Positions 13,111-24,195 of a stretch of DNA of 50,514 nucleotides are shown in pieces (position 1 is the stretch's first letter; each line of letters opens with the position of its first letter). Both the position numbers and the translations under genes were made by a program. The notes beneath the pieces were generated by a model that saw nothing but the letters and a program-made list of their open reading frames with translations, made no database searches and was not told where the DNA came from. Source of the DNA: Betaproteobacteria bacterium HGW-Betaproteobacteria-18 (lineage in GTDB: Bacteria > Pseudomonadota > Gammaproteobacteria > Burkholderiales > Burkholderiaceae_C); contig PHCO01000003.1 in assembly GCA_002842265.1 (NCBI GenBank), forward strand, positions 1-50,514. Direction: 5' to 3'.

Positions 13111-13239
13111 CCAAGGCAGCACGCCCATTCCAACAGCTAGACATCCAGCTGTTCAGGCAGATCGAGTGCATCGTTGACCTGCCCCCCCAGTCATACCAGC
13201 CTAAAGGTAGTGAGGTCCGTCAACCGCCAGTCCGAATGA

Positions 13240-13430
13240 TGGGGTAGCGGTCGGTGGTACGGCGCTAACCGGGTCGCGGAAGCTCCATGTCCGCATCACC
13301 ACTTACAGCCGCCATTCGGGCCAGCGCTGGTCGCTATACCCAACAGCCGCTTCGTGGCAGACAGCGTGAGTACGCTTGGCAACAGCCACCGCCAGCCACC
13401 GCCAGCCACCGCCAGCAACCGCTGCACACT
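13240..13430 (+). repeat. Dispersed intergenic repeat, copy A
   Basis: Aligns with 23965-24135 in the same orientation. The best-conserved part reads acagccgccattcgggccag, then caacagccgcttc and ggcag-cagcgtgag. Identity is roughly three quarters by eye. The short ORFs inside it are shadows of the repeat. The two copies bracket the lower-GC gene patchwork. Confidence 0.65.
13385..13414 (+). repeat. Short tandem repeat, three 10-bp units
   Basis: GCCACCGCCA is present three times head to tail and is followed by a partial GCAACCGC. It lies inside copy A of the dispersed repeat and is absent from copy B, so it looks like a local slippage expansion. Confidence 0.75.
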
Positions 13431-13867
13431 TGCCCGTCGCTGGTCAGGACCCGCTTGAGGCTGGTTGCTGTCCCACAGTTTCGACGGCTGAGTGCATTCT
13501 CCGAACCGCAACCCGTCGTTCACCGAGCAGGATCTCAAACGACCGCTCGACCTCCTACACCGGTCGCTCGGCAGGGGCGACAGGTTTTATGTTCGGGAAT
13601 GGCGGCTCACGCTGTGGGCGAACTGATGCTCTCGGCGGGCTTTGCGGCAGGGGTGATGTTGTTCTATGAGTGAGAATATTGGGCGGGGGAAGGGGGAGCA
13701 AAAAGAGCAAAGCCTTCAAACTCCTTTGCTGAACCAAGCTGACTAGCGTCACGTGGTCTTCAGATTGAAGTTGTTGATATTGTCTGGATGGGTTCCTTTG
13801 CATATGCGAACTTTACTGGATTGCAGGTGTTGCACTTCAGGTTTGAATAGCACCTTAAGAGAGGTGA

Positions 13868-14167
13868 AATCAAGCTAAACTACTCTCACTTGGGGATGTT
13901 GACCTAAATTCGAGTGCTGGAAAAGCGCTAGTAAGCGTTCTTGCCGCCGCTGCCGAGTTGGAACATGACCTCCAGATTGAAAGAGCACAAACAGGTCATC
14001 AGAGAGCGAAAGTCGATGGTAAAGACGTTGGTCGTACCCCGAACGGCAATGAGGAACAGAAACTCCAAATCGTGGTGCTTTTGAATGCATGTTTATCTGT
14101 TTCATCTACCGAACGCCAATTTAATGTGAGCCGAGCGTCCATAGTCGCACACAGGACAGAAGCATAA
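13868..14167 (+). pseudogene. Serine recombinase (resolvase/invertase) C-terminal remnant
   Basis: An open frame with no start codon runs from a TGA at 13865 to the TAA at 14165. It reads like the second half of a Tn3-type resolvase or DNA invertase: LLSLGDVDLNSSAGKAL, LAAAAELEHDLQIER, GHQRAKVDGKDVGRTP, and a final helix-turn-helix (ERQFNVSRASIVAH). The catalytic N-terminal domain is missing, and upstream sequence holds only scraps in other frames. It is therefore a dead remnant of a mobile element next to the imported genes. ORF 13958-14167 in the track is part of this frame. Confidence 0.72.
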
Positions 14168-14239
14168 TAAATGCAGTGAGTTATCTATATGCATGCTCAA
14201 TCAGTTACCCATCGGAACCGCCGTTACGAACTTTAAACA

Positions 14240-14986
14240 ATGCGGCCTATATTGCTATTATCTATAGTGCTAGCTTTGACTAGCGCTGCACAAGCCCAGA
14301 ACTTATTGCGAGTATCTGAGGATGCGTGGACACAGCTACTGCCTGATGAAAGAACTGACATCCAAGAGCGGTTCCTAGTTGAACCAGTTTCGTCTAGTCT
14401 TTTTGGGAAAATTATAGACAACCAAGGCCTAGACAGATCCATTCAGGGAAACAATGCAGGGAGCGCATTAGGGGGATCAATTGCTAGTGCTGCTTATATC
14501 GATAACGCATTTCGACCAAATGGCAACTTCTCCGCGAAAGAACACTTGGCAGCCGTGATCGTTGGCGGCGTATTGGGTTCAGCGCTAAACCGAGCGCCAG
14601 TTAGTCAGTTTCAATTTCGCTATGCAGTTCAAGACGGTCGGGGTGGAGTAAGTTATCATGACGTGATCTCACAAGATCCATTCCGTCATCCGGTTGGCAT
14701 TTGTGTAAACCTCCCTGCCGTAACCCTCGCTCAAAACCAAGAGCTGTGCAGCCAAACAGCTGAAATATTGAGATCGACCTATCTTCCGGGCTATACATCC
14801 AGACCTCTAGTCAGCCACTCCAGCTCGGCCAAACATTCTGTGCGAGCGTCTCCTCAAGTGGCTGTCCAAGAAGATGCAAGTAGGAATGAGTCGAGTTCTA
14901 AAGTGCTCTGCAAAATTGGAACTCTGTCACCAGTGACTGCAAGTCGAGAAAAGTGTGAATCTATCAATGGAAATATCATAGAATGA
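14240..14986 (+). CDS. Hypothetical exported protein
   Basis: A 248-residue product of unknown family. A clear signal peptide (MRPILLLSIVLALTSAAQAQ) is followed by a mature part with a glycine/alanine-rich stretch near residues 72-110 (NNAGSALGGSIASAAY, AAVIVGGVLGSAL), resembling glycine-zipper surface proteins. There are two cysteine pairs in the later half, and the C terminus (VLCKIGTLSPV...) is polar. The codon use is AT-richer than the metal island. Its last four bases overlap the next gene (ATGA), so the two form an operon. No function can be assigned; envelope location is inferred. Confidence 0.6.
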   Translation: MRPILLLSIVLALTSAAQAQNLLRVSEDAWTQLLPDERTDIQERFLVEPVSSSLFGKIIDNQGLDRSIQGNNAGSALGGSIASAAYIDNAFRPNGNFSAKEHLAAVIVGGVLGSALNRAPVSQFQFRYAVQDGRGGVSYHDVISQDPFRHPVGICVNLPAVTLAQNQELCSQTAEILRSTYLPGYTSRPLVSHSSSAKHSVRASPQVAVQEDASRNESSSKVLCKIGTLSPVTASREKCESINGNIIE

Positions 14987-15573
14987 AATACAAAATCTTA
15001 ATATCAATTGCCACCTTGTTTCTCGCTGGCTGTGGTACAAACTTCATCTATAACATAGGCAACAAGACCTACGATGATCCTGATGACTTCATTAAAGCGG
15101 GAGAGGCGAATAATCTCGCAGTAAAGCGTGCAATCCTTCCACTTCAGAAGAAACTCACAGATAAAAAGCTAATTATTGTTTTCGCAAGCAGAGATGCGAT
15201 TGTGTCTAATAGTACGGCACAGGCTGAGGCTCGGGTGAAGAAGAAGCTGAATGAAGACTTTATCGAAAATCATGAGACGATGGCAACATATACTGTCAAC
15301 GGGGTGAAGAATATGTACGAGGCTGCTAGCGTAAAAGGTATATATTCTCACGTCGTTTACAGAGAAACCAATACGCTGGCGAACTCATTAGCACCCGCCG
15401 CTGATTATGATACGCTAGCTTGGTATCAGGAAGCTGGCGGCGTTGGCCAGTGGTTCTATTCCAGTGCGAAATATGGAAAACAATTATTTGTCTTTGATCA
15501 AACTTCAAATGAAGCTAGCGTAAAGACTGAAGCTTTCCTCTCTGCCCTTCAAGCACTTGCAATTCGTGACTAG
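14983..15573 (+). CDS. Hypothetical lipoprotein
   Basis: The 196-residue product has a lipobox LAGC after a short hydrophobic signal (MKYKILISIATLFLAGCGTN), so it is probably anchored in the outer membrane. The mature protein is a mixed alpha/beta sequence containing KKLIIVFASRDAIVSN and a long middle region with aromatic residues; no known domain was recognised. It is coupled to the preceding exported protein through an ATGA overlap and is followed by a strong terminator, so the pair is a self-contained two-gene unit. Possibly a surface complex; the role is unknown. Confidence 0.65.
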   Translation: MKYKILISIATLFLAGCGTNFIYNIGNKTYDDPDDFIKAGEANNLAVKRAILPLQKKLTDKKLIIVFASRDAIVSNSTAQAEARVKKKLNEDFIENHETMATYTVNGVKNMYEAASVKGIYSHVVYRETNTLANSLAPAADYDTLAWYQEAGGVGQWFYSSAKYGKQLFVFDQTSNEASVKTEAFLSALQALAIRD

Positions 15574-15601
15574 TTATTGGTTGTTAGTTATATATCAAGC
15601 G

Positions 15602-15635
15602 GAAGCCTCTCGAAGTAATTCGCGAGGCTTTTTCT
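15602..15635 (+). terminator. Intrinsic terminator
   Basis: AGCCTCTCGAA-gtaa-TTCGCGAGGCT followed by TTTTTCTT forms an 11-bp stem with one mismatch and a tetraloop. It ends the 14240-15573 operon, 30 bp after its last stop. Confidence 0.85.
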
Positions 15636-15638
15636 TGA

Positions 15639-15872
15639 TTATTTATATTTTCCAGAGGGCATGCTATCGACCAGTTGCAGCCATGCCATCGAAGGAAAAA
15701 TCGCACCCAATGCGAGTAAGACTTTTCGGAACTGAGGACCGCCACGTCGGACGACTGTAACCTCCTCGACAACGGTCATTGATGCCACCGCGCTGCCGGG
15801 TGAGCCGATGACCTCGTCGTACCAAGTACCGAAGTCCCAACTCGCCGCAGCGACTAACGGCACTCGCTGCAC
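15639..15872 (-). CDS. Doubtful small membrane protein or fragment
   Basis: A 77-codon frame reads like protein in its middle (DFGTWYDEVIGSPGSAVAS, then TVVEEVTVVRRGG) and ends with a hydrophobic helix (VLLALGAIFPSMAWL). There is no good ribosome-binding site at the listed start, and no family was recognised. It may be the C-terminal part of a gene cut by the repeat DNA at 15.9 kb, or chance coding. Confidence 0.25.
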   Translation of the reverse strand: MQRVPLVAAASWDFGTWYDEVIGSPGSAVASMTVVEEVTVVRRGGPQFRKVLLALGAIFPSMAWLQLVDSMPSGKYK

Positions 15873-16262
15873 AGCCGAACTTGTAAAATCGAAGGTCGCT
15901 TGAGGCTGGTTGCGGCCGGTCAGGTGTTCAGGGCCCGATCACAGCCGCCGCTCGAAACGGCCATTCCTCGTCTGCCTGGCGACCGACCGTTGCACCTCCA
16001 GCAGCGGCCACTCAACAGCGTTGGGCCAGACGAGATGCCGAGCGACTCCTGCCCGCCAAGACGACCGGCTCTTCACGACCCGTACCGGTCATTCAAGGAG
16101 CCAACGCGAAGCGGTCACTGTGTGATAAGGGATGCCGGGTTTCGTGCTTTACTTGTACAAAAATCAGATCGGCGTGCGCAACACGTCCTGAATATCCGCC
16201 CAGTTTATTCCGCAGGCTCTGCGGAAGGCATCGCATAAACGTGCAAGAAGAACGGTTCCGCA

Positions 16263-16649
16263 GTGGCGAATTACTTCAAAAGAAGCGAGCGAAAGCTCTT
16301 TGTGACCTGTCTCGTCGCAACGGTTGCTGCGGGAGCTGCGTCCGTTCTGGCTATTGGTTTATCGCATGGGCTGGCCGGGAAGTTGACTGCAACCTCCGGA
16401 CTTTTGGCGACTCTGACTGGCGTCGTTCAGCTCGAGGTCAGTGGTCTTTTCACGAAGATCATGGAGATCTACGGGGACGACACAAAGTATCCGTACGGCC
16501 CACCGTCATACATCACGCGAGAAGTCATCGATGACCCCGATGCTCCTGTTCTCAGCTGGATTCGGACCTATGCGTTTTTCTCGCCTGCTACTGGCTTCTG
16601 GCTTATCGTCCTGGGCACGCTCATTCAGGTTCTCGCGGTATGGCTATAG
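16263..16649 (+). CDS. Small integral membrane protein, unknown
   Basis: A 128-residue product starts at GTG 16263 (no better start is available). Three hydrophobic helices are apparent: about 11-32, 40-62 (AGKLTATSGLLATLTGVVQLEVSGL) and 108-127 (GFWLIVLGTLIQVLAVWL). A polar loop lies between them (MEIYGDDTKYPYGPPSYIT). No family was recognised. It lies within a unit ending in the attC site at 16669-16737, only 19 bp after its stop codon. That is the normal position for an integron cassette gene, so a cassette-borne membrane protein is the best description. Confidence 0.6.
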   Translation: MANYFKRSERKLFVTCLVATVAAGAASVLAIGLSHGLAGKLTATSGLLATLTGVVQLEVSGLFTKIMEIYGDDTKYPYGPPSYITREVIDDPDAPVLSWIRTYAFFSPATGFWLIVLGTLIQVLAVWL

Positions 16650-16668
16650 CAAGCAAAGCGCGCACGAC

Positions 16669-16737
16669 ACCCAACCCTGCATTGCAGCCGACCCTGGCCA
16701 GTTGCGCTGGCCGGTCGGCAGAATTCAAGCGTTATGA
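16669..16737 (+). other. Integron attC recombination site
   Basis: R'' ACCCAAC (16669-16675), L'' GCCGACC, a central GGCCAG-TTGCG-CTGGCC stem, L' GGTCGGC, then AATTCAAGC and the core GTTATGA (16731-16737). Folding the two halves gives the usual attC hairpin with a few unpaired bases. The last 20 bases closely resemble the ends of well-known class 1 cassette sites. The length of 69 bp is normal. Orientation is plus, so cassettes would read left to right. Confidence 0.8.
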
Positions 16738-17678
16738 GTCGCGCATCTAGACCCCCAGTTCCCGCCGCTGTTCGGCGCGCCATCCTAGTTGAGGCCGGAC
16801 ACAAGTGCGCCATTCCGCGGTGTGGGCATGGAGACGTGGATATCCACCACATCGTTCCGTGGGAGACCTGCGGTAAGCATGAATACGCGAACTTGATATC
16901 TCTTTGCCCAAACTGTCATCGCCGTGCACATAAAGGTGAGATCGACCGTAAGTCACTTCATCTCTACAAGGCTGCTTTGGTGGCCTCATTCCAAGTCGCC
17001 GGTGAAGCGCTGTTCTCGGCTCCAGCAGTGGAGATCAAGCGACGCATCTACGAGGTGGATTCGGCGAGCGCGGAATGCAGTTTCAGCTTCGAGTACCCCG
17101 ACTTTGTCAATCCAATGGCTCGAATAGTTTCCAAAAACATTGAGGCCTGGGGGCTCGAACTCTTGGCGACGTTTCGTCAGTCACAGGATGCGGAACACCG
17201 TCTACACCCAAACAAACCAGATTACCCGATCTGGTGGCTTACTGGCTCCTACCAAGTCTCCCGACGAGATACGCAAGTTATCAGCGTTCGATATGACATT
17301 GAGCAAATGGCCTTTGGAGCTGCCCATCGGTCGTACGAGACAAGAGTGCAAAACTTCTTCGTCGACCCATTTTCGCCAATGCTGCTTGAGGAACTTCTCG
17401 CTTCCCCTCGGGCGATTGAACCTTTGGCAGAAGCAGTCAGACGAAAGCTGCTATCAGGTGGAGACTTAGACCCAACTCACGTCGAGATTGGTACGGCGCC
17501 GGACCCGGATCTTTTCTCGAGGTTCGTAGTCGATCAGTACGGCCTTACCTTCATGTTCGATCCGTATGAGGTTGCGTGCTACGCCCAAGGACCGCAGCAC
17601 GTAAGTCTCTCATTTGAGGAGTTGGCTAAGCTATTCAAACGAGAGCAACTTTACGTCCTTACTCCACCAGACTCATAA
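16734..17678 (+). CDS. HNH endonuclease-domain protein
   Basis: A 314-residue product has an N-terminal HNH nuclease (about 20-70): cysteine pair C-x4-C (KCAIPRCGHG), the HNH signature VDIHHIVPW, then NLISLCPNCHRRAHKG. The C-terminal 240 residues are not recognised and may sense or bind a partner. The ATG lies within the core GTTATGA of the preceding attC site, and the stop TAA lies within CTCATAAC, the exact complement of GTTATGAG. The gene therefore fills the whole cassette, which is common in integron cassettes. No methylase partner is adjacent. A restriction or defence role is possible but inferred. Confidence 0.82.
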   Translation: MSRASRPPVPAAVRRAILVEAGHKCAIPRCGHGDVDIHHIVPWETCGKHEYANLISLCPNCHRRAHKGEIDRKSLHLYKAALVASFQVAGEALFSAPAVEIKRRIYEVDSASAECSFSFEYPDFVNPMARIVSKNIEAWGLELLATFRQSQDAEHRLHPNKPDYPIWWLTGSYQVSRRDTQVISVRYDIEQMAFGAAHRSYETRVQNFFVDPFSPMLLEELLASPRAIEPLAEAVRRKLLSGGDLDPTHVEIGTAPDPDLFSRFVVDQYGLTFMFDPYEVACYAQGPQHVSLSFEELAKLFKREQLYVLTPPDS

Positions 17679-17722
17679 CAGCAAAGGCGTGCCCTGGGAC
17701 GTTTTCTACAACCTCGTTAACG
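17672..17722 (+). other. Degenerate attC-like site
   Basis: CTCATAAC at 17672-17679 is the perfect complement of the GTTATGAG that begins the HNH unit, as expected of R''. A core-like GTTAACG lies at 17716, itself complementary to GGTTAAC at 18348. The inner arms do not pair well and the length (51 bp) is short, so this is a decayed or atypical site. Confidence 0.4.
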
Positions 17723-17744
17723 GCGGCTTTTGCGCATGCACAAA

Positions 17745-17831
17745 GACCGCTCCTGGCCGGGACTGCCAGTTCGCGGTCAAGTCCGGCAGCGGTCCTTGGT
17801 CATGCACCGGATCGAAAGATCGGTGTCGACG
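17745..17831 (+). repeat. Palindromic intergenic repeat, copy 1
   Basis: GACCGCTCCTGGCCGGGACT, then a 15-nt loop, then AGTCCGGCAGCGGTC: an imperfect hairpin, followed by a tail ending GTGTCGACG. Related copies lie at 18497-18583 and 21325-21376. Confidence 0.7.
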
Positions 17832-17891
17832 GCCAGGAACATAGCGAGCCGACCCTGATCAGGCACCCGAACCTCACCTAGAACGATCCAC

Positions 17892-18353
17892 ATGTACGCG
17901 GAACAGATTAGGCGCTATTTAGATGCATATGACGGCAAACCTCCACGGGTTCGCCTGACCTATGTCGATCTCACAATTGGAGAAACGACGGGTGTCTATT
18001 TCGCTGAAGGCCCGAGAGGTCTCTTTCCGTCTATCTATGAGTTCGCTGCCGAAGCGCTCATTTCTATTGAGCATCACATGACCGGCGAAGAAACCGCCAC
18101 CTACCCCCAATCCGCATGGTCGGAATTAGAAGCTTTCTCCTGCGATGCTCTACCTTGGATGAACTTCTACAACCAGATAGTGCGGCCGGGAGAAATGCTG
18201 TGCTTTCCGACCGAACAAGTACTTGGCTTCAAGCCCCCGATGAATCTTGAGCGCAAGCTGTACTTGACTCCACACTTCAGCGGCACGGAAGAGTGCTTTG
18301 CCACTCAAAACATTGATGTGTTCGCTCTTCTGTATTGGCATACAACCGGTTAA
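17892..18353 (+). CDS. Hypothetical protein in cassette-like unit
   Basis: A 153-residue soluble product (MYAEQIRRYLDAYDGKPPRV...). It is acidic with many aromatic residues and has no signal peptide, membrane helix or metal motif. No family was recognised. Its stop codon falls within GGTTAAC, complementary to the core-like GTTAACG at 17716, again the arrangement of a cassette gene ending inside its own recombination site. Start ATG 17892 is accepted because the protein-like sequence begins there; a weak GAACGATCC precedes it. Confidence 0.55.
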   Translation: MYAEQIRRYLDAYDGKPPRVRLTYVDLTIGETTGVYFAEGPRGLFPSIYEFAAEALISIEHHMTGEETATYPQSAWSELEAFSCDALPWMNFYNQIVRPGEMLCFPTEQVLGFKPPMNLERKLYLTPHFSGTEECFATQNIDVFALLYWHTTG

Positions 18354-18742
18354 CAAAAAATATCCAAACATCCTGCAAGGCCCTGCTGCCAAACTGATTG
18401 GTCAACCGGACGCCAGCCAGCTAGCTCCACTTTTTTGGTACCTCACTCCGGGCCAGTTACCGCGCGCGTTGAAGGTCTGCTTCACGCATGAGCAGCGACT
18501 GCTGTTGGCCGGGACTACCAGTTCGCGGTCAAGCCCGGGAGCGGTCCTTGATCATTCATCGGATCGAGGGCCTGGTGTCGACGACCATTGACCTGCCCCC
18601 CGCCAGCCGAGGTGCAGGTAGAGGAGAACATAGAGCGATAGCGGCCGTGGGTTAGTCGGCATACCATCTGTTACAGTGGCTGAAATTGACCATCAAAGTG
18701 TTGGTATGTGTGACTATTCCAAACTACGTAAACGAGGGTGCT
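18354..18742. other. Intergenic repeat DNA
   Basis: No gene is supported. The stretch contains a possible core site GCGTTGAAGG at 18467, copy 2 of the palindromic repeat, and the insertion-sequence-like ttgacctgcccccc motif at 18588. The last 100 bp before 18743 are AT-richer and probably contain the promoter of the next operon; no strong box was identified. Confidence 0.45.
18497..18583 (+). repeat. Palindromic intergenic repeat, copy 2
   Basis: GACTGCTGTTGGCCGGGACT, loop ACCAGTTCGCGGTCA, AGCCCGGGAGCGGTC, then a tail ending GTGTCGACG as in copy 1. The outer stem GACTGCT/AGCGGTC keeps pairing with one T-G wobble. Confidence 0.7.
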
Positions 18743-19300
18743 ATGGGTTCATTTGGTTTTCTCCATGTAATATTTCTAATCGCCGGCGGGGCTGTTGCTT
18801 ACTATTTCTTGTTTAGACCAGATGTTCATCTAATCATGCCGAATGAGCTTAAAGATATTGAGAAAAATGTTAAAGACTTAATCGAAGCTGATCCAATGGA
18901 TTACAATCTCATTGCGGAAACAAAGGAAAAACTAAGAGGGGAATTTGTGCAGTGTGCACATATGTTTAATCGAAATCCGCCTGGTTTTTCAAAGGAAGAA
19001 GCTACATCACTCAGGGCGATGGTGGATGAAAGCAAACAAACCTTGAGGAGTGTTTGTAAGCTTATGGAAGAAGTCAAGGGTCCGCTAGAGAAGGTATTGA
19101 GAGCCGCCGAAGTCGCGGCAGAAAAAATCAGAGCGGCAATTGAACTGAGAAAGAAGGATTCTTCTGGTGACAATGATGAGCTCGAGGATGAATTGGATGA
19201 TTTTGAAGCCATGCTGGAATCTATGATTGCTGATGTGCTAAAGCATACAGAGTCAAAGAAAAAACTCGAATATTCGTTGGCAAAGTACGGCTCCCTGTGA
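18743..19300 (+). CDS. Membrane-anchored coiled-coil protein, unknown
   Basis: A 185-residue product has one N-terminal membrane helix (GFLHVIFLIAGGAVAYYFLF) followed by a charged helical region rich in lysine and glutamate (about 35-185) that looks like a coiled coil, ending in an acidic run (DDELEDELDDFEAM-like). The ATG at 18743 is chosen because GAGGGTG lies just upstream; the TTG at 18686 would place 19 unlikely residues before the membrane helix. It is AT-rich compared with the window. The next gene starts 7 bp after its stop, so the two form an operon. No family was recognised. Confidence 0.6.
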   Translation: MGSFGFLHVIFLIAGGAVAYYFLFRPDVHLIMPNELKDIEKNVKDLIEADPMDYNLIAETKEKLRGEFVQCAHMFNRNPPGFSKEEATSLRAMVDESKQTLRSVCKLMEEVKGPLEKVLRAAEVAAEKIRAAIELRKKDSSGDNDELEDELDDFEAMLESMIADVLKHTESKKKLEYSLAKYGSL

Positions 19301-19307
19301 GGTGAAA

Positions 19308-20168
19308 ATGGCTTTTCCTGATGGGGCTTTGTTTGTCAAAAGCGGTGATATTCCGTCCGGAATATATGGTGTAGCGGATACCTTAATATCGAAAGATGAA
19401 CTTACCATTTGGCTGAAGGATCTACAACAGTGCACAATCGTTTCGGATCGGCACGAGTCATATCAAACGGGTACAGGTCGAATCGCTGGAGGAATACTTG
19501 GCGCAGTACTACTTGGACCTATTGGTGCGGCTGGTGGGTTGCTAGCTGGAGGAAAGAGGCGAATTGATCAAACAATAATACTTTGCCGCCTGTTTGATGG
19601 CAGATCGTTTACGGCAGAGTGCTCGCAAACTACTGCGGCAAAACTAACGCAAGTTGCGGTATTAAATCAATCACCTAGACAGGCTGCCTCATCGGCGCCG
19701 ATGTACGAATCATCAAGACCAGTCGCCGTTACTCATGAAAAGGACTCTGATTCAATAGATTGCCCGATGTGCGCAGAACGCATAAAAGAGAAAGCAAAAA
19801 TTTGTCGGTTCTGTGGGTGCAAAGTTCAAGAAGAAAAAAGCAAGAAAGTTGACTCTTTAAAACTGCAGGATGATGTGGATGAAGTGCATCAATTTGACGA
19901 GCTATATCAAAAGTATGTCTCGAACTCAGATGACGCCGAAGTGTTCGATCGAGAATCTGCTTTAGAGGTAATGACTTTGTTTTCTCGGCTTCAAAAGCAA
20001 CACCCCGACCTGTCGTATAGAGACTTGGCGGATAGGGTAAGGGATGAGTTTGGTGGTAACACTAAACAGCCGCTTTATGACCTGATCAAGAATGGGTTTA
20101 AGTTTCTTAGATCGAACAGGAGGTTTGATATCGTTGAAGATCGTTATGTTGTTGTAAAAAAGGCTTGA
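19308..20168 (+). CDS. Glycine-zipper and zinc-ribbon protein, unknown
   Basis: A 286-residue product. Residues about 55-85 form a glycine-rich hydrophobic segment (GRIAGGILGAVLLGPIGAAG), possibly a membrane-inserting hairpin. Residues about 150-172 form a zinc ribbon of the UPF0547 type (CPMCAERIKEKAKICRFCGC). The last 100 residues are helical. The ATG at 19308 follows TGAGGTG, a clear ribosome-binding site, and was preferred over the GTG at 19302. It is translationally close-coupled to the upstream coiled-coil membrane protein. The combination suggests a membrane-associated sensor or effector pair, but no function can be named. Confidence 0.6.
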   Translation: MAFPDGALFVKSGDIPSGIYGVADTLISKDELTIWLKDLQQCTIVSDRHESYQTGTGRIAGGILGAVLLGPIGAAGGLLAGGKRRIDQTIILCRLFDGRSFTAECSQTTAAKLTQVAVLNQSPRQAASSAPMYESSRPVAVTHEKDSDSIDCPMCAERIKEKAKICRFCGCKVQEEKSKKVDSLKLQDDVDEVHQFDELYQKYVSNSDDAEVFDRESALEVMTLFSRLQKQHPDLSYRDLADRVRDEFGGNTKQPLYDLIKNGFKFLRSNRRFDIVEDRYVVVKKA

Positions 20169-20493
20169 TAAGAATCTTGTCATGGTTGTCTGTGGCGTTT
20201 GATAATTGGTTTGCTGGCAAGAATCATGTTTCACGCTGAGTTATCTTTACCACTTTGTTTTCGGGGTTGCACGTTGGCCGAACATAGTCAGTAGTTTATC
20301 GGCCAACGCCATCAGAAACTGATTTATCCGCGAAGGGCGGAAATTGCTGCACAATGTTCAGCAGCTTTTATTTCCGACCGACTGTATCGGGTGGAAAATT
20401 CTAGTTCATACCCGAGCGAAATCTGCACCAAGCCAGAGGAGTGGCTCGACGACTGCCAGGCTTTTCCTAACCTATAGATTTTTTGGAAATTTC
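20169..20493. other. Intergenic with inverted repeat
   Basis: CGTTGGCCGA (20272-20281) and TCGGCCAACG (20299-20308) form a perfect 10-bp stem with a 17-nt loop. There is no T tract, so it may be a protein site or a recombination-site remnant rather than a terminator. The rest, up to the HNH gene start, shows no gene; the upstream part of ORF 20344-20886 before 20494 does not look like protein. Confidence 0.45.
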
Positions 20494-20886
20494 ATGACCG
20501 AGGCCTCGAAGCAACCAAGAAGTACCTACTACCAAGCTTTCGTCAGAGACAAATTTCGCTGTGTGTATTGCGAAAAGGACATCCTTGAGTCCTTCGACTC
20601 CTTTGCAGCCTCGCACCTCGATCACCTCAAGCCGGAAAGTGCGCGAGGACCATGTGAGGATGTATGGAACCGAGTCACTGCCTGTGGTGTTTGCAATTCC
20701 CTCAAGGGTGCCTATGACCCTGTACCCGGCGAGCATGTGACCGAAGAGAATTTCGCTACGGCGGTAGCCAACGCCAAGGACTACATTCAAAAGAAGCGCC
20801 ACGGAGAAGCCAACACCAGTTACTTCCGAGACTACCAGTATTGGCTCGAAGAATCAGCCAAGATAAAGGCTCAGTCCAAACGGTAA
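20494..20886 (+). CDS. Small HNH endonuclease
   Basis: A 130-residue protein consists almost entirely of an HNH nuclease domain: CVYCEKDI (first zinc knuckle), SHLDHLKP (HNH core), then ACGVCNSLKG with the second knuckle and the conserved asparagine. It resembles the 5-methylcytosine-type and McrA-type stand-alone HNH proteins. The start at 20494 was selected because the family begins shortly before the first CxxC and the upstream 50 codons look non-coding. It is a lone gene flanked by repeat DNA. It is the second HNH protein within 4 kb; the sequence similarity between the two is limited to the motif. Confidence 0.82.
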   Translation: MTEASKQPRSTYYQAFVRDKFRCVYCEKDILESFDSFAASHLDHLKPESARGPCEDVWNRVTACGVCNSLKGAYDPVPGEHVTEENFATAVANAKDYIQKKRHGEANTSYFRDYQYWLEESAKIKAQSKR

Positions 20887-20893
20887 CCATCTA

Positions 20894-20917
20894 CAGGCCG
20901 GTGAGTAGACCGGCCTG
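20894..20917 (+). terminator. Hairpin after HNH gene
   Basis: CAGGCCGGT-gagtag-ACCGGCCTG is a perfect 9-bp stem 8 bp after the stop codon. The following tract (cggtacttctctc) is pyrimidine-rich but not a T run, so it is a weak or factor-assisted terminator. Confidence 0.5.
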
Positions 20918-21324
20918 CGGTACTTCTCTCGTTGCTGCGAAGCTGTCAGACAGCCAACCAAGTTGAAGGCCCGCTCATGGCCGAAAGCCCCTGGTCGACC
21001 ATTGCATTCACTCAACCCCAAGCAACAATCCCCTGCCATCGCTCTCGCATCAAAATTAATTTGATTTTTCGCGTTCAATATAGTCGGGACATTTACGAGG
21101 CAAGGGGGTAGTTCTGTTCTTCGCAGCCTCGCTAGTCTGCACGGTGGCCGCTTGGGCACTCCGCGCAGAATTTGTCAGTGGTCCGTAGATGTTGGTGCAG
21201 CACGGCTTCACAAAAGGGAGGCCGAAGAAGCAAGTGCAAACGGCCAACTAAACCAAACAGAGGCTTCCTGTTCGTTGCGTATCGCGAACTCTGTCATTCA
21301 ACGTCTGCTTCACCACATCAACAG

Positions 21325-21376
21325 CGACGGCTCCTGGCCGGGACTACCAGCTCGCGGCCGTACCAAGGAGCCGTCG
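21325..21376 (+). repeat. Palindromic intergenic repeat, copy 3
   Basis: CGACGGCTCCTGGCCGGGACTACCAG...CCAAGGAGCCGTCG. The loop side matches copies 1 and 2, while the outer stem has changed on both sides (CGACGGCTCC with GGAGCCGTCG) and still pairs, which is compensatory change. Confidence 0.65.
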
Positions 21377-21794
21377 TACGTGATAGAAACGGCAAGAAGG
21401 ACTGCTTGCTCAGATCACTGCCGGCCGGGGATCTTGAGCGGACTTTCGTGTAGTTTCAGCATAGCAGTCTGTCAAGCCTTCAATGTTGCTGGATATTGCA
21501 GTCCTTTGCCGCTCCCAACAAAAGCGCCATGTTCCAGTAGACGCAGACCTTGTCGGTCTGTAAGCTATCATGCAAATCGGGAACGAGTGCGCATACCCGA
21601 TTTAGATGCTCGGCGGACCTGGGAGGGACCCAATGGGGTTTCTCGGATCTGTTAAACCTGTTCATAGTGATGTGTTACAGCTTTGATTTCAAATACATTT
21701 TCGGAATGCTATGCGCCTTTATTTGGCAATCGTGATTGTGGGTATCCTGCGTTATGCCGTTTGAATCAAAGGTGTACCTCATCGGAGGGCATAA

Positions 21795-22703
21795 ATGACT
21801 AGTGCCAGCAATGCATTCGTAGCAGCGGCTACCGCCGTGACGATGGCCGCCGCTGTCGGATATGGCCTTTATTGGCTCACGGCCCCAAAGGGGCCGCCAG
21901 TGAATGCGGGACAGTTGGGGCGTAAGTGGTTTGCTTGGACCGCAATGATCTTGACGACTTCTACGTTGCCTCGCTTTTTTCTATCCTACAGTACAGTCTC
22001 ATTTGTGAATTGGGTAATTGGTCTGGTCTTTTTTGGAGGCCTAGCCTTGATATTCGGGTGGGCGTATGGTCGCTTTTCCAGGTTCAAGCCGCCTAGACCT
22101 GATGAGCAGCCAAATGCTCAAGGTGCATACGAGTCACATATGAAGGCTTCACCGAAACACGTAGGCTCGATCCGAACTCACTATACCAATCCACATATTA
22201 CTGAGCACGCCAGCGACGAAGTCATAAAAGGGGGTACAGAGGATGATCCTGATATACCCAAAGACCCAAGCACTGAAATTCCTACGATTGCCACTTCTGG
22301 TCGTGTTCCGCTAACCGCTGCCGAGGCATCCGAAGTGTTATGGGAGAAGGCGGCCCATGAATTGAAGACAAATCGCCGCGAGGGCTTGTGGGCGCGCTGC
22401 TTCGCCGAGAGCGACGGCAATGAAAATCGAGCTTTGGCTCGCTACTTGCGCTTTCGGGTTGGTGAACTACAGGTAGAGCAGAACTCGTCGCCCCAGCAGC
22501 ATGTCGTAAGTCATTGTTCTGCAGATGTAGTTCTCCCAGATCTAGTCTCCGATGAGACGCCAATTTCAGGCGATGAGCCTGTTAAGTGCCCGCGTTGTTC
22601 TCATATCGTCACAGTTGGCTCGACAATTTGTCCAAATTGTTTAGCTATGTTCGGCCCGCAGTCAATCTGGAAATTGGTGCGGAATAAGACTTCCGGTTCG
22701 TGA
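21795..22703 (+). CDS. Membrane protein with helical domain and C-terminal zinc ribbon
   Basis: A 302-residue product. Three membrane helices occupy the first 95 residues (AAAVGYGLYWLT, WTAMILTTSTLPRFFL, VNWVIGLVFFGGLALIFGWAYG). A polar linker follows, then a helical domain at about 180-220 (LWEKAAHELKTNRREGLWAR...ALARYLRFRV). The C terminus is a zinc ribbon (CPRCSHIVTVGSTICPNCLA). The middle domain closely resembles residues 22-70 of the minus-strand gene at 23124-23630. AGGGCAT precedes the ATG at 21795. It probably acts at the inner membrane; the function is unknown. Confidence 0.62.
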   Translation: MTSASNAFVAAATAVTMAAAVGYGLYWLTAPKGPPVNAGQLGRKWFAWTAMILTTSTLPRFFLSYSTVSFVNWVIGLVFFGGLALIFGWAYGRFSRFKPPRPDEQPNAQGAYESHMKASPKHVGSIRTHYTNPHITEHASDEVIKGGTEDDPDIPKDPSTEIPTIATSGRVPLTAAEASEVLWEKAAHELKTNRREGLWARCFAESDGNENRALARYLRFRVGELQVEQNSSPQQHVVSHCSADVVLPDLVSDETPISGDEPVKCPRCSHIVTVGSTICPNCLAMFGPQSIWKLVRNKTSGS

Positions 22704-23123
22704 TCTGTCAGTCGTACACGCGACTATGCATTAACTCAGATGGCAAACATCCTGATTACGTTCGGGGGTGGGCAATCTAGCGGCGTTGCTCAACCGGGCG
22801 CTGGCACTGGGAGATGAAACACCGAAGCCTGAGGTAGAAAAGAACGGCACACGCAAGCAGGTCAATCGTTCGAGTGGGGCTGCTGTTCTTGCGCTGGATC
22901 AGCCCGGCGCTACTGCTGGCCATGTCAGAGTGTGTGAAAGCCTGGGTGAAGACCTACTTGCCCGGCCGCTCCCGCCCTCGAAATCACACCCACAGCAAGC
23001 CTCATCACTCTCAGGCGTACATGCGGGCGACCTAAGTGTTGTGAATTTGGAGACATGCGGGCGGCGGTGATACCAGCTCCGACCATTTAAAGGTGAGGCA
23101 TCTTGATGCAGATTGATTGGACT
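22704..23123. other. Intergenic, no supported gene
   Basis: This lies between two facing genes. A 100-codon plus frame (22768-23070) has no ribosome-binding site and no recognisable domain. I see no terminator with a T tract. Sequence near 22728-22760 could be the decayed end of a cassette (see the 20887-21794 entry). Confidence 0.4.
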
Positions 23124-23630
23124 TCAATCTTTTGAAAAGCCTGGCAGTTCCCAAAGGAAGTGAACACCGTTCGCTCCCAAACGGTCTTCGATGAGAAGTT
23201 CAATCGTATCGTTGTCAAAACCGATCGATCGAAGCTTTTCAATTAATAATGATGCCTGCTGATATTGATCCTCAGAATCTATTACATCTGCAAGCATGTC
23301 AACAAGCTCACCTGGATCTACGGGAAGTGGGGAAGGCAAAACTTCAACAAGAGCAGTTTTTTCTGGTGGTCTTTCTGAACTTGCTGAGTTGTCGACGAAT
23401 GATTTCTGTCTCTCAGCCTTCAGAACTTCGATTTCGTCTTTGATGGACTGAACCCTGTAGCGAATATACAGTGCCCTGGCTTTTTGCTCATCCCCTTGGC
23501 AATCACTTAGCGCTTTTGCCCAGAGCCCAAGTCGCTTCTCACCTTCGGCAAGTTCAAGTACAACTTGCTCATAAAGAACTTCGTCAGCAATTCGCGATGC
23601 GGCGGCTGCACGCCGAAGATTTTCAAACAT
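23124..23630 (-). CDS. Hypothetical helical protein
   Basis: A 168-residue soluble protein (MFENLRRAAAASRIADEVLY...). Residues about 15-65 repeat the domain found in the 21795 product: YEQVVLELAEGEKRLGLWAK, then DEQKARALYIRYRV. The second half has an acidic, proline-containing linker and an ending that looks like a short addiction-type or J-like module (IEKLRSIGFDNDTIELLIED). The ATG at 23630 was chosen over the TTG at 23642. No family name was recognised. It is probably co-transcribed with the fragment at 23705-23869. Confidence 0.58.
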   Translation of the reverse strand: MFENLRRAAAASRIADEVLYEQVVLELAEGEKRLGLWAKALSDCQGDEQKARALYIRYRVQSIKDEIEVLKAERQKSFVDNSASSERPPEKTALVEVLPSPLPVDPGELVDMLADVIDSEDQYQQASLLIEKLRSIGFDNDTIELLIEDRLGANGVHFLWELPGFSKD

Positions 23631-23704
23631 GCTGCGTTCCAAAAATTTGGCGAGAACTATGCATCTCGCTCCATAGTGAGCTGCGATAACATCTTAACAT
23701 TTGA

Positions 23705-23869
23705 TTACCTTGGTTTGGGTCGTTCAAACTTGACTATTTCTCCCTCGTTGGCAATGCAAACGACATGTTCGATAACCCTCTGCGACCCATCACCATCCTC
23801 TGGGGTCATGTAGATCAATTCCATTTGCCATCCAAGTGTAAGCGCGCTGCCATCCCAACTTGACCGCAT
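23705..23869 (-). pseudogene. Probable 5'-truncated small gene
   Basis: The last 40 codons (LIYMTPEDGDGSQRVIEHVV...) read like genuine protein of the same AT-rich style as the downstream gene. The frame runs into the large inverted repeat at 23838-23902 and then into dispersed repeat copy B, where it loses protein character. The ATG at 23869 lies inside the hairpin loop, so either the gene starts there or it was cut by insertion of the repeat. No family. Confidence 0.35.
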
Positions 23870-23902
23870 GGTGAGGTCAAGTTGGGATGGCGGCGCGCTT
23901 AC
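23838..23902. repeat. 28-bp near-perfect inverted repeat
   Basis: GTAAGCGCGCTGCCATCCCAACTTGACC and GGTCAAGTTGGGATGGCGGCGCGCTTAC are complementary except for one position, around a 9-nt loop. There is no T tract. It marks the sharp border between the AT-richer gene pair and dispersed repeat copy B. Confidence 0.85.
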
Positions 23903-24195
23903 GAGTGACCGGTTTCCGGAATGTGTTCGACCGTCATCAACGGGTCGATACCGTCGTCCAGGTGAGGGTGAAGCGGTCGATGGCTCGGCGCCGGCCGGTC
24001 GCGAAGCCCTATGACCGCAGCACCTCACACAGCCGCCATTCGGGCCAGCGCCGGTCGCCGTGCACAACAGCCGCTTCATGGCAGTCAGCGTGAGCGCGCC
24101 TGGCAGCACTCACCGTCACCTGCCGCTGCACTGCCGCCGTCCAAGTCAAGAGTTTGAACGGCAACAACGTCGTGACCTGTCAGTTCGGATTCGAT
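23870..24195. other. Repeat-rich intergenic DNA
   Basis: The right arm of the large inverted repeat, then copy B of the dispersed repeat, then about 60 bp before the end of the SprT-like gene. No coding frame is supported. Confidence 0.5.
23965..24135 (+). repeat. Dispersed intergenic repeat, copy B
   Basis: Same orientation as copy A at 13240-13430; shares cagccgccattcgggccagc, caacagccgcttc and gcgtgag blocks with a common left part (agcggtcgatggctcggcgc versus agcggtcggtggtacggcgc). Confidence 0.65.

Follow-up and report, generated by a model that had tools for sequence, protein, structure and literature searches.

A 50,514-nucleotide stretch of bacterial DNA (hereafter 'the window', which corresponds to contig C436 of a draft genome comprising 3.58 Mb in 521 contigs) contains a run of three small genes that a sequence-only reading had interpreted as a CALIN-type cluster of three integron gene cassettes, with an attC site at the first junction and no integrase in view. 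This raises the question of how much of that run is integron-derived, and of how such DNA came to lie where it now does. The features that bear most directly on that question are as follows:

16263-16649, + strand: coding sequence for a small membrane protein of 128 aa, with plasmid homologues
16669-16737, + strand: attC site of 69 nt (R'' box ACCCAAC, R' box GTTATGA), with covariance-model matches and a bottom-strand fold
16731-17679, + strand: body of the HNH gene cassette, with G^TTATGAGTC at its left and the R'' box GACTCATAAC at its right, the remainder of the attC missing
16734-17678, + strand: coding sequence for a protein of 314 aa with an HNH endonuclease domain (Pfam, 1.3e-8) and a DUF3298 domain (Pfam, 1.9e-9)
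17671-17722, + strand: proposed right-hand attC, rejected (R'' box only)

The attC site and the unit to its left

Two covariance models were used in the search for attC sites. The first (R1) was trained on 14 aligned sites, the sources of which were the genome's own integron (L009), Desulfoluna (L014) and a cassette array in Pseudorhodoferax soli (hereafter P. soli; L013), and the second (R2) on 21; both sets came mostly from Burkholderiales, so that a diverged attC could be missed, and neither contained any sequence from the window. When R1 was applied to a locus outside its training (L022, in genome G011), seven regularly spaced sites were found. The paired positions of the R2 alignment, which had itself been fitted to the structure, contained 40 double-changed cells, as compared to 17.5 in shuffles. 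A hand-made attC scorer was dropped as too permissive, and attC-like sequences picked out by eye around HNH homologues at two further loci (L015 and L016) received no support from the models.

With all filters off, R1 matched positions 16669-16737 of the 50-kb window on the forward strand with a score of 23.4 bits and an E-value of 0.0037 (the next-best match having an E-value of 2.8), and R2 matched the same positions with 23.4 bits and an E-value of 0.0035; these E-values, of about 0.004 per window, are rough because the calibration was shortened, and the match was the only significant one in the window for R1 and R2 alike. Across the 3.58-Mb genome, two attC matches were found at E-values of 1 or below, this one and a site beside the integron integrase gene (intI). 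The same stretch forms an imperfect palindrome with a bottom-strand hairpin, for which the DNA fold displayed a z-score of -3.83 and was equalled by none of 200 shuffles, and it carries core boxes of the RYYYAAC and GTTRRRY type (ACCCAAC and GTTATGA), including the AAC and GTT that are invariant in the attC model. The R' box departs from RRRY, exactly like that of the P. soli attC that precedes the orthologous HNH gene. While its score is modest when compared to those of array sites (29-64 bits), 16669-16737 is a genuine attC by both sequence model and folding, and it represents the 3' end of a left-hand cassette together with its junction to the HNH cassette. The attC originally claimed at this position, for which the lack of a covariance-model match had been named as grounds for rejection, was thus recovered at its exact coordinates by two models trained without the window sequence.

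The membrane-protein gene ends with a stop codon that lies 20 nt ahead of the attC, and it therefore probably belongs to the cassette that ends at that site. Upstream of that gene, neither the covariance models nor end complementarity revealed an attC or a 5' cassette boundary. The left-hand unit had been proposed to run from GTTGGGC (16020) to ACCCAAC (16675); the contiguous complementarity of these ends is 6 nt, which is at chance level, and with no attC at the outer end that boundary was not sustained. Homologues of the membrane protein, which are 37-43% identical to it, occur on Pseudomonas and Bradyrhizobium plasmids, where no attC was detected around them by the models; the protein displayed no match in viral contigs. 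The idea that the HNH protein is encoded by the gene following the membrane protein on those plasmids was checked, and proved not to be so.

The HNH gene and the right end of its unit

The HNH unit starts with GTTATGAGTC (16731) and ends with GACTCATAAC (extending to 17679), which are complementary over 10 nt, an extent reached by chance at only 0.3% of the GTTs in the window; the end-to-start complementarity previously described for this unit consequently stands. The encoded protein is 71%, 49% and 47% identical to proteins at loci L013, L014 and L015, respectively. The orthologue from P. soli (71%) sits within an array of ten attC sites with regular spacing; those ten are training sites whose covariance-model scores follow by construction, and their status as attC rests on their core boxes, their spacing and an end complementarity of 7-13 nt. 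The P. soli HNH cassette (L013, 5998-6943) starts with GTTATGAGTC, with the start codon inside that R' box, and ends with GACTCATAAC, with the stop codon inside that R'' box, and the ends of the window copy are exactly the same. What sets the two apart is that in P. soli a complete attC follows the cassette, which forms part of an array, whereas neither applies to the window copy.

Related HNH genes were also found at L022, where the gene is flanked by two attC sites from outside the training set, and in Desulfoluna, where one attC follows the gene; P. soli, Desulfoluna and G011 all encode integron integrases that score over the curated cut-off. The gene thus occurs as a cassette in independent arrays (L013, L014 and L022). 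Of 301 family genomes, only the window's own gave a full-length match to the HNH protein. These cassette-borne relatives, and the restriction of the full-length match to a single genome, identify the HNH gene as cassette-borne rather than as a conserved chromosomal gene. Conservation of the gene order in relatives, as ordinary chromosomal genes, had been put forward as an outcome that would overturn the cassette reading, and the order was found not to be conserved.

At the right end of the unit, neither R1 nor R2 matched 17671-17722, and the fold of that stretch (z +1.5) was equalled or bettered by 194 of 200 shuffles; the attC proposed at this position was rejected on these two grounds. At the corresponding point, the P. 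soli HNH cassette carries an attC of 69 nt. Where a cassette comprises a G^TT start and its own complete 3' attC, the HNH unit retains the start and an R'' box only: it is a truncated cassette.

The third unit and the dispersed repeats

To the right of the HNH gene, the locus contains a third open reading frame and a family of dispersed repeats:

17715-17840, + strand: dispersed repeat copy A, 126 nt, 82% identical to copy B over 103 nt
17892-18353, + strand: coding sequence for an unknown protein of 153 aa, between repeat copies A and B, with no Pfam or PADLOC family
18467-18592, + strand: dispersed repeat copy B, in the cargo island described below
21295-21403, + strand: dispersed repeat copy C, in the same island

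The third unit had been delimited by GTTAACG (17716) and GGTTAAC (18354), the contiguous complementarity of which is again 6 nt; matches of that length, at 300-1100 nt downstream, are found for about 20% of all GTTs in the window. No attC lies at the outer end of the unit, which has no flanking attC sites, and its proposed boundaries are accordingly at chance level. Two real cassettes at L022 display an end complementarity of as little as 5 nt, and a short end match does not exclude a cassette, but merely fails to support one. The GTTAACG that had been read as a cassette start sits at the left edge of repeat A; the repeat alignment is weakest at that edge, and the point is supporting rather than decisive. 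From the repeat edge and the 6-nt ends, the 153-aa reading frame is best regarded as a gene between two repeat copies and not as a cassette. No relatives of its protein were found in 300 genomes of the family or in plasmids. Relatives of the repeat occur in G118 and G109, two further genomes of the family, and no comparable copy was found elsewhere in the genome outside the island. Copies A to C are imperfectly palindromic, and are not attC by the models. The tight fit of genes within their units, which had also been advanced as a cassette feature, holds for the HNH gene and fails for the other two reading frames, which are preceded by about 240 and 175 nt of non-coding sequence.

Integrases, host element and origin of the cassette pair

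As noted before, intI is absent from the window; a check of the rest of the genome, which had been recommended, uncovered an intact copy (336 aa; contig C460, 5263-6273, at L009) beside ftsZ, scoring 438 bits against TIGR02249 and encoding a protein 59% identical to IntI1. It is followed by attI-side cassettes, at least one of which is complete, that run off the end of the contig, and it constitutes a chromosomal integron of this genome. A truncated second intI (contig C290, 3539-3964, at L010), which covers profile positions 49-190 with 169 bits, is apparently the remnant of a broken integron.

A CALIN, or cluster of attC sites lacking integron-integrase, is reported by IntegronFinder 2 when at least two attC sites are present (PMC9024848), and a single attC without an integrase is termed a SALIN (PMC12690207). 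Because it displays one attC match, rather than at least two within reach, and no neighbouring integrase, the locus is a SALIN by published usage. It differs from that class in that an intact intI is present on another contig of its genome, and in that its attC forms the junction of two units, of which one has kept its R'' box; it resembles a CALIN in that a mobile element holds its cassette DNA, apart from an integrase. Of the CALIN-type cluster of three cassettes that was first proposed, the presence of integron-derived DNA without an adjacent integrase and the identity of the HNH gene as a cassette gene were upheld, but the CALIN designation was not, since no more than one attC could be detected. 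Mobile elements with attC sites but no intI have already been described, phages among them (PMC9892861), and the integron remnant therefore represents a known kind of system.

The surroundings of the remnant comprise two large features (with no strand assigned):

13200-24000: low-GC cargo island that holds the cassette remnant (GC 0.45-0.57, versus about 0.60 around it)
26177-50260: ICE transfer module, with TraD, a MobH/PFGI-1-class relaxase and TIGR03749/03750/03752/03755, all NCBIfam matches over cut-off

By this gene content, the host element is a MobH-type ICE (integrative and conjugative element). It shares with MobH / PFGI-1-class ICEs the TraD, relaxase and TIGR0375x transfer proteins, but its cargo island is absent from the related loci examined (six loci that carry the gene located at 24.45-24.93 kb).

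The explanation that best accounts for these observations, with a probability of roughly 0.8, is that a fragment of a cassette array, in which a single attC links two cassettes, became part of the ICE's cargo island and was subsequently stripped of its outer recombination sites. A true three-cassette CALIN, in which the attC sites at 17.67 kb and 18.35 kb would have diverged, appears improbable: while the HNH cassette possesses an intact R'' box with a GTTRRR-like motif 37 nt further on, and while the reading frames are small, unrelated and on one strand, the stretch at 17671-17722 displays neither a model match nor a fold, the 6-nt end matches are at chance level, and GTTAACG is found at the margin of a repeat that is also present where no cassette has been claimed. 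An intact intI in the same genome might instead have permitted its integrase to insert a cassette directly into a non-attC secondary site of the ICE. This is quite improbable, as a lone cassette acquired in that manner would have its attC at its right end, whereas here the HNH gene has an attC to its left and none to its right; in addition, the window site scores 23.4 bits versus 40.2 bits for the attC of the host array (the latter being a training site). That the palindrome arose by chance upstream of an ordinary HNH gene, with no integron history, is highly improbable. The covariance-model score is modest, and about 0.27 such matches would be expected in a genome of this size, but the attC lies right at the start codon of the HNH gene, the orthologue of which is borne on a cassette with identical 10-nt ends.

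According to the array-fragment explanation, then, the piece of integron array that the island took up would since have shed its outer attC sites, with the loss of the HNH cassette's own attC probably occurring after it had left the array. For a cassette to be excised, two recombination sites must be present (one attC plus another attC or attI). There is a site to the left of the HNH cassette but none to its right, while for the membrane-protein cassette there is a site to the right and none was found to the left, so that both would be essentially immobile for IntI, and the pair would now spread only with the ICE. The locus may thereby represent a cassette that left integron arrays, was taken up as cargo by a conjugative element and ceased to be excisable; it also indicates that short end complementarity is weak evidence for a cassette, a 6-nt match being found at about one GTT in five.

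Integrons of distant lineages repeatedly carry members of the HNH-DUF3298 family, which has no catalogued function. That the protein targets DNA or acts in defence is a guess, and the broader proposal, that it belongs to an uncatalogued integron-borne family of DNA-targeting (possibly anti-phage) proteins that moves between distant proteobacteria as a cassette and was captured here by an ICE, is tentative and rather doubtful. PADLOC matches of the gene were set aside as evidence for defence, as they span the HNH motif only. Structure prediction of the HNH protein, with four distinct sequences, was poor (mean pLDDT 53), and no paper joining the HNH and DUF3298 domains was found in the literature library searched.

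Elsewhere in the island, a second and unrelated small HNH gene (20494-20883) displays weak PtuB-like matches, and a nearly perfect inverted repeat of 31 nt with a 3-nt loop is found at 23838-23902. Direct repeats of 124 nt (81%) occur at both edges of the island, at 13279-13402 and 24003-24126.
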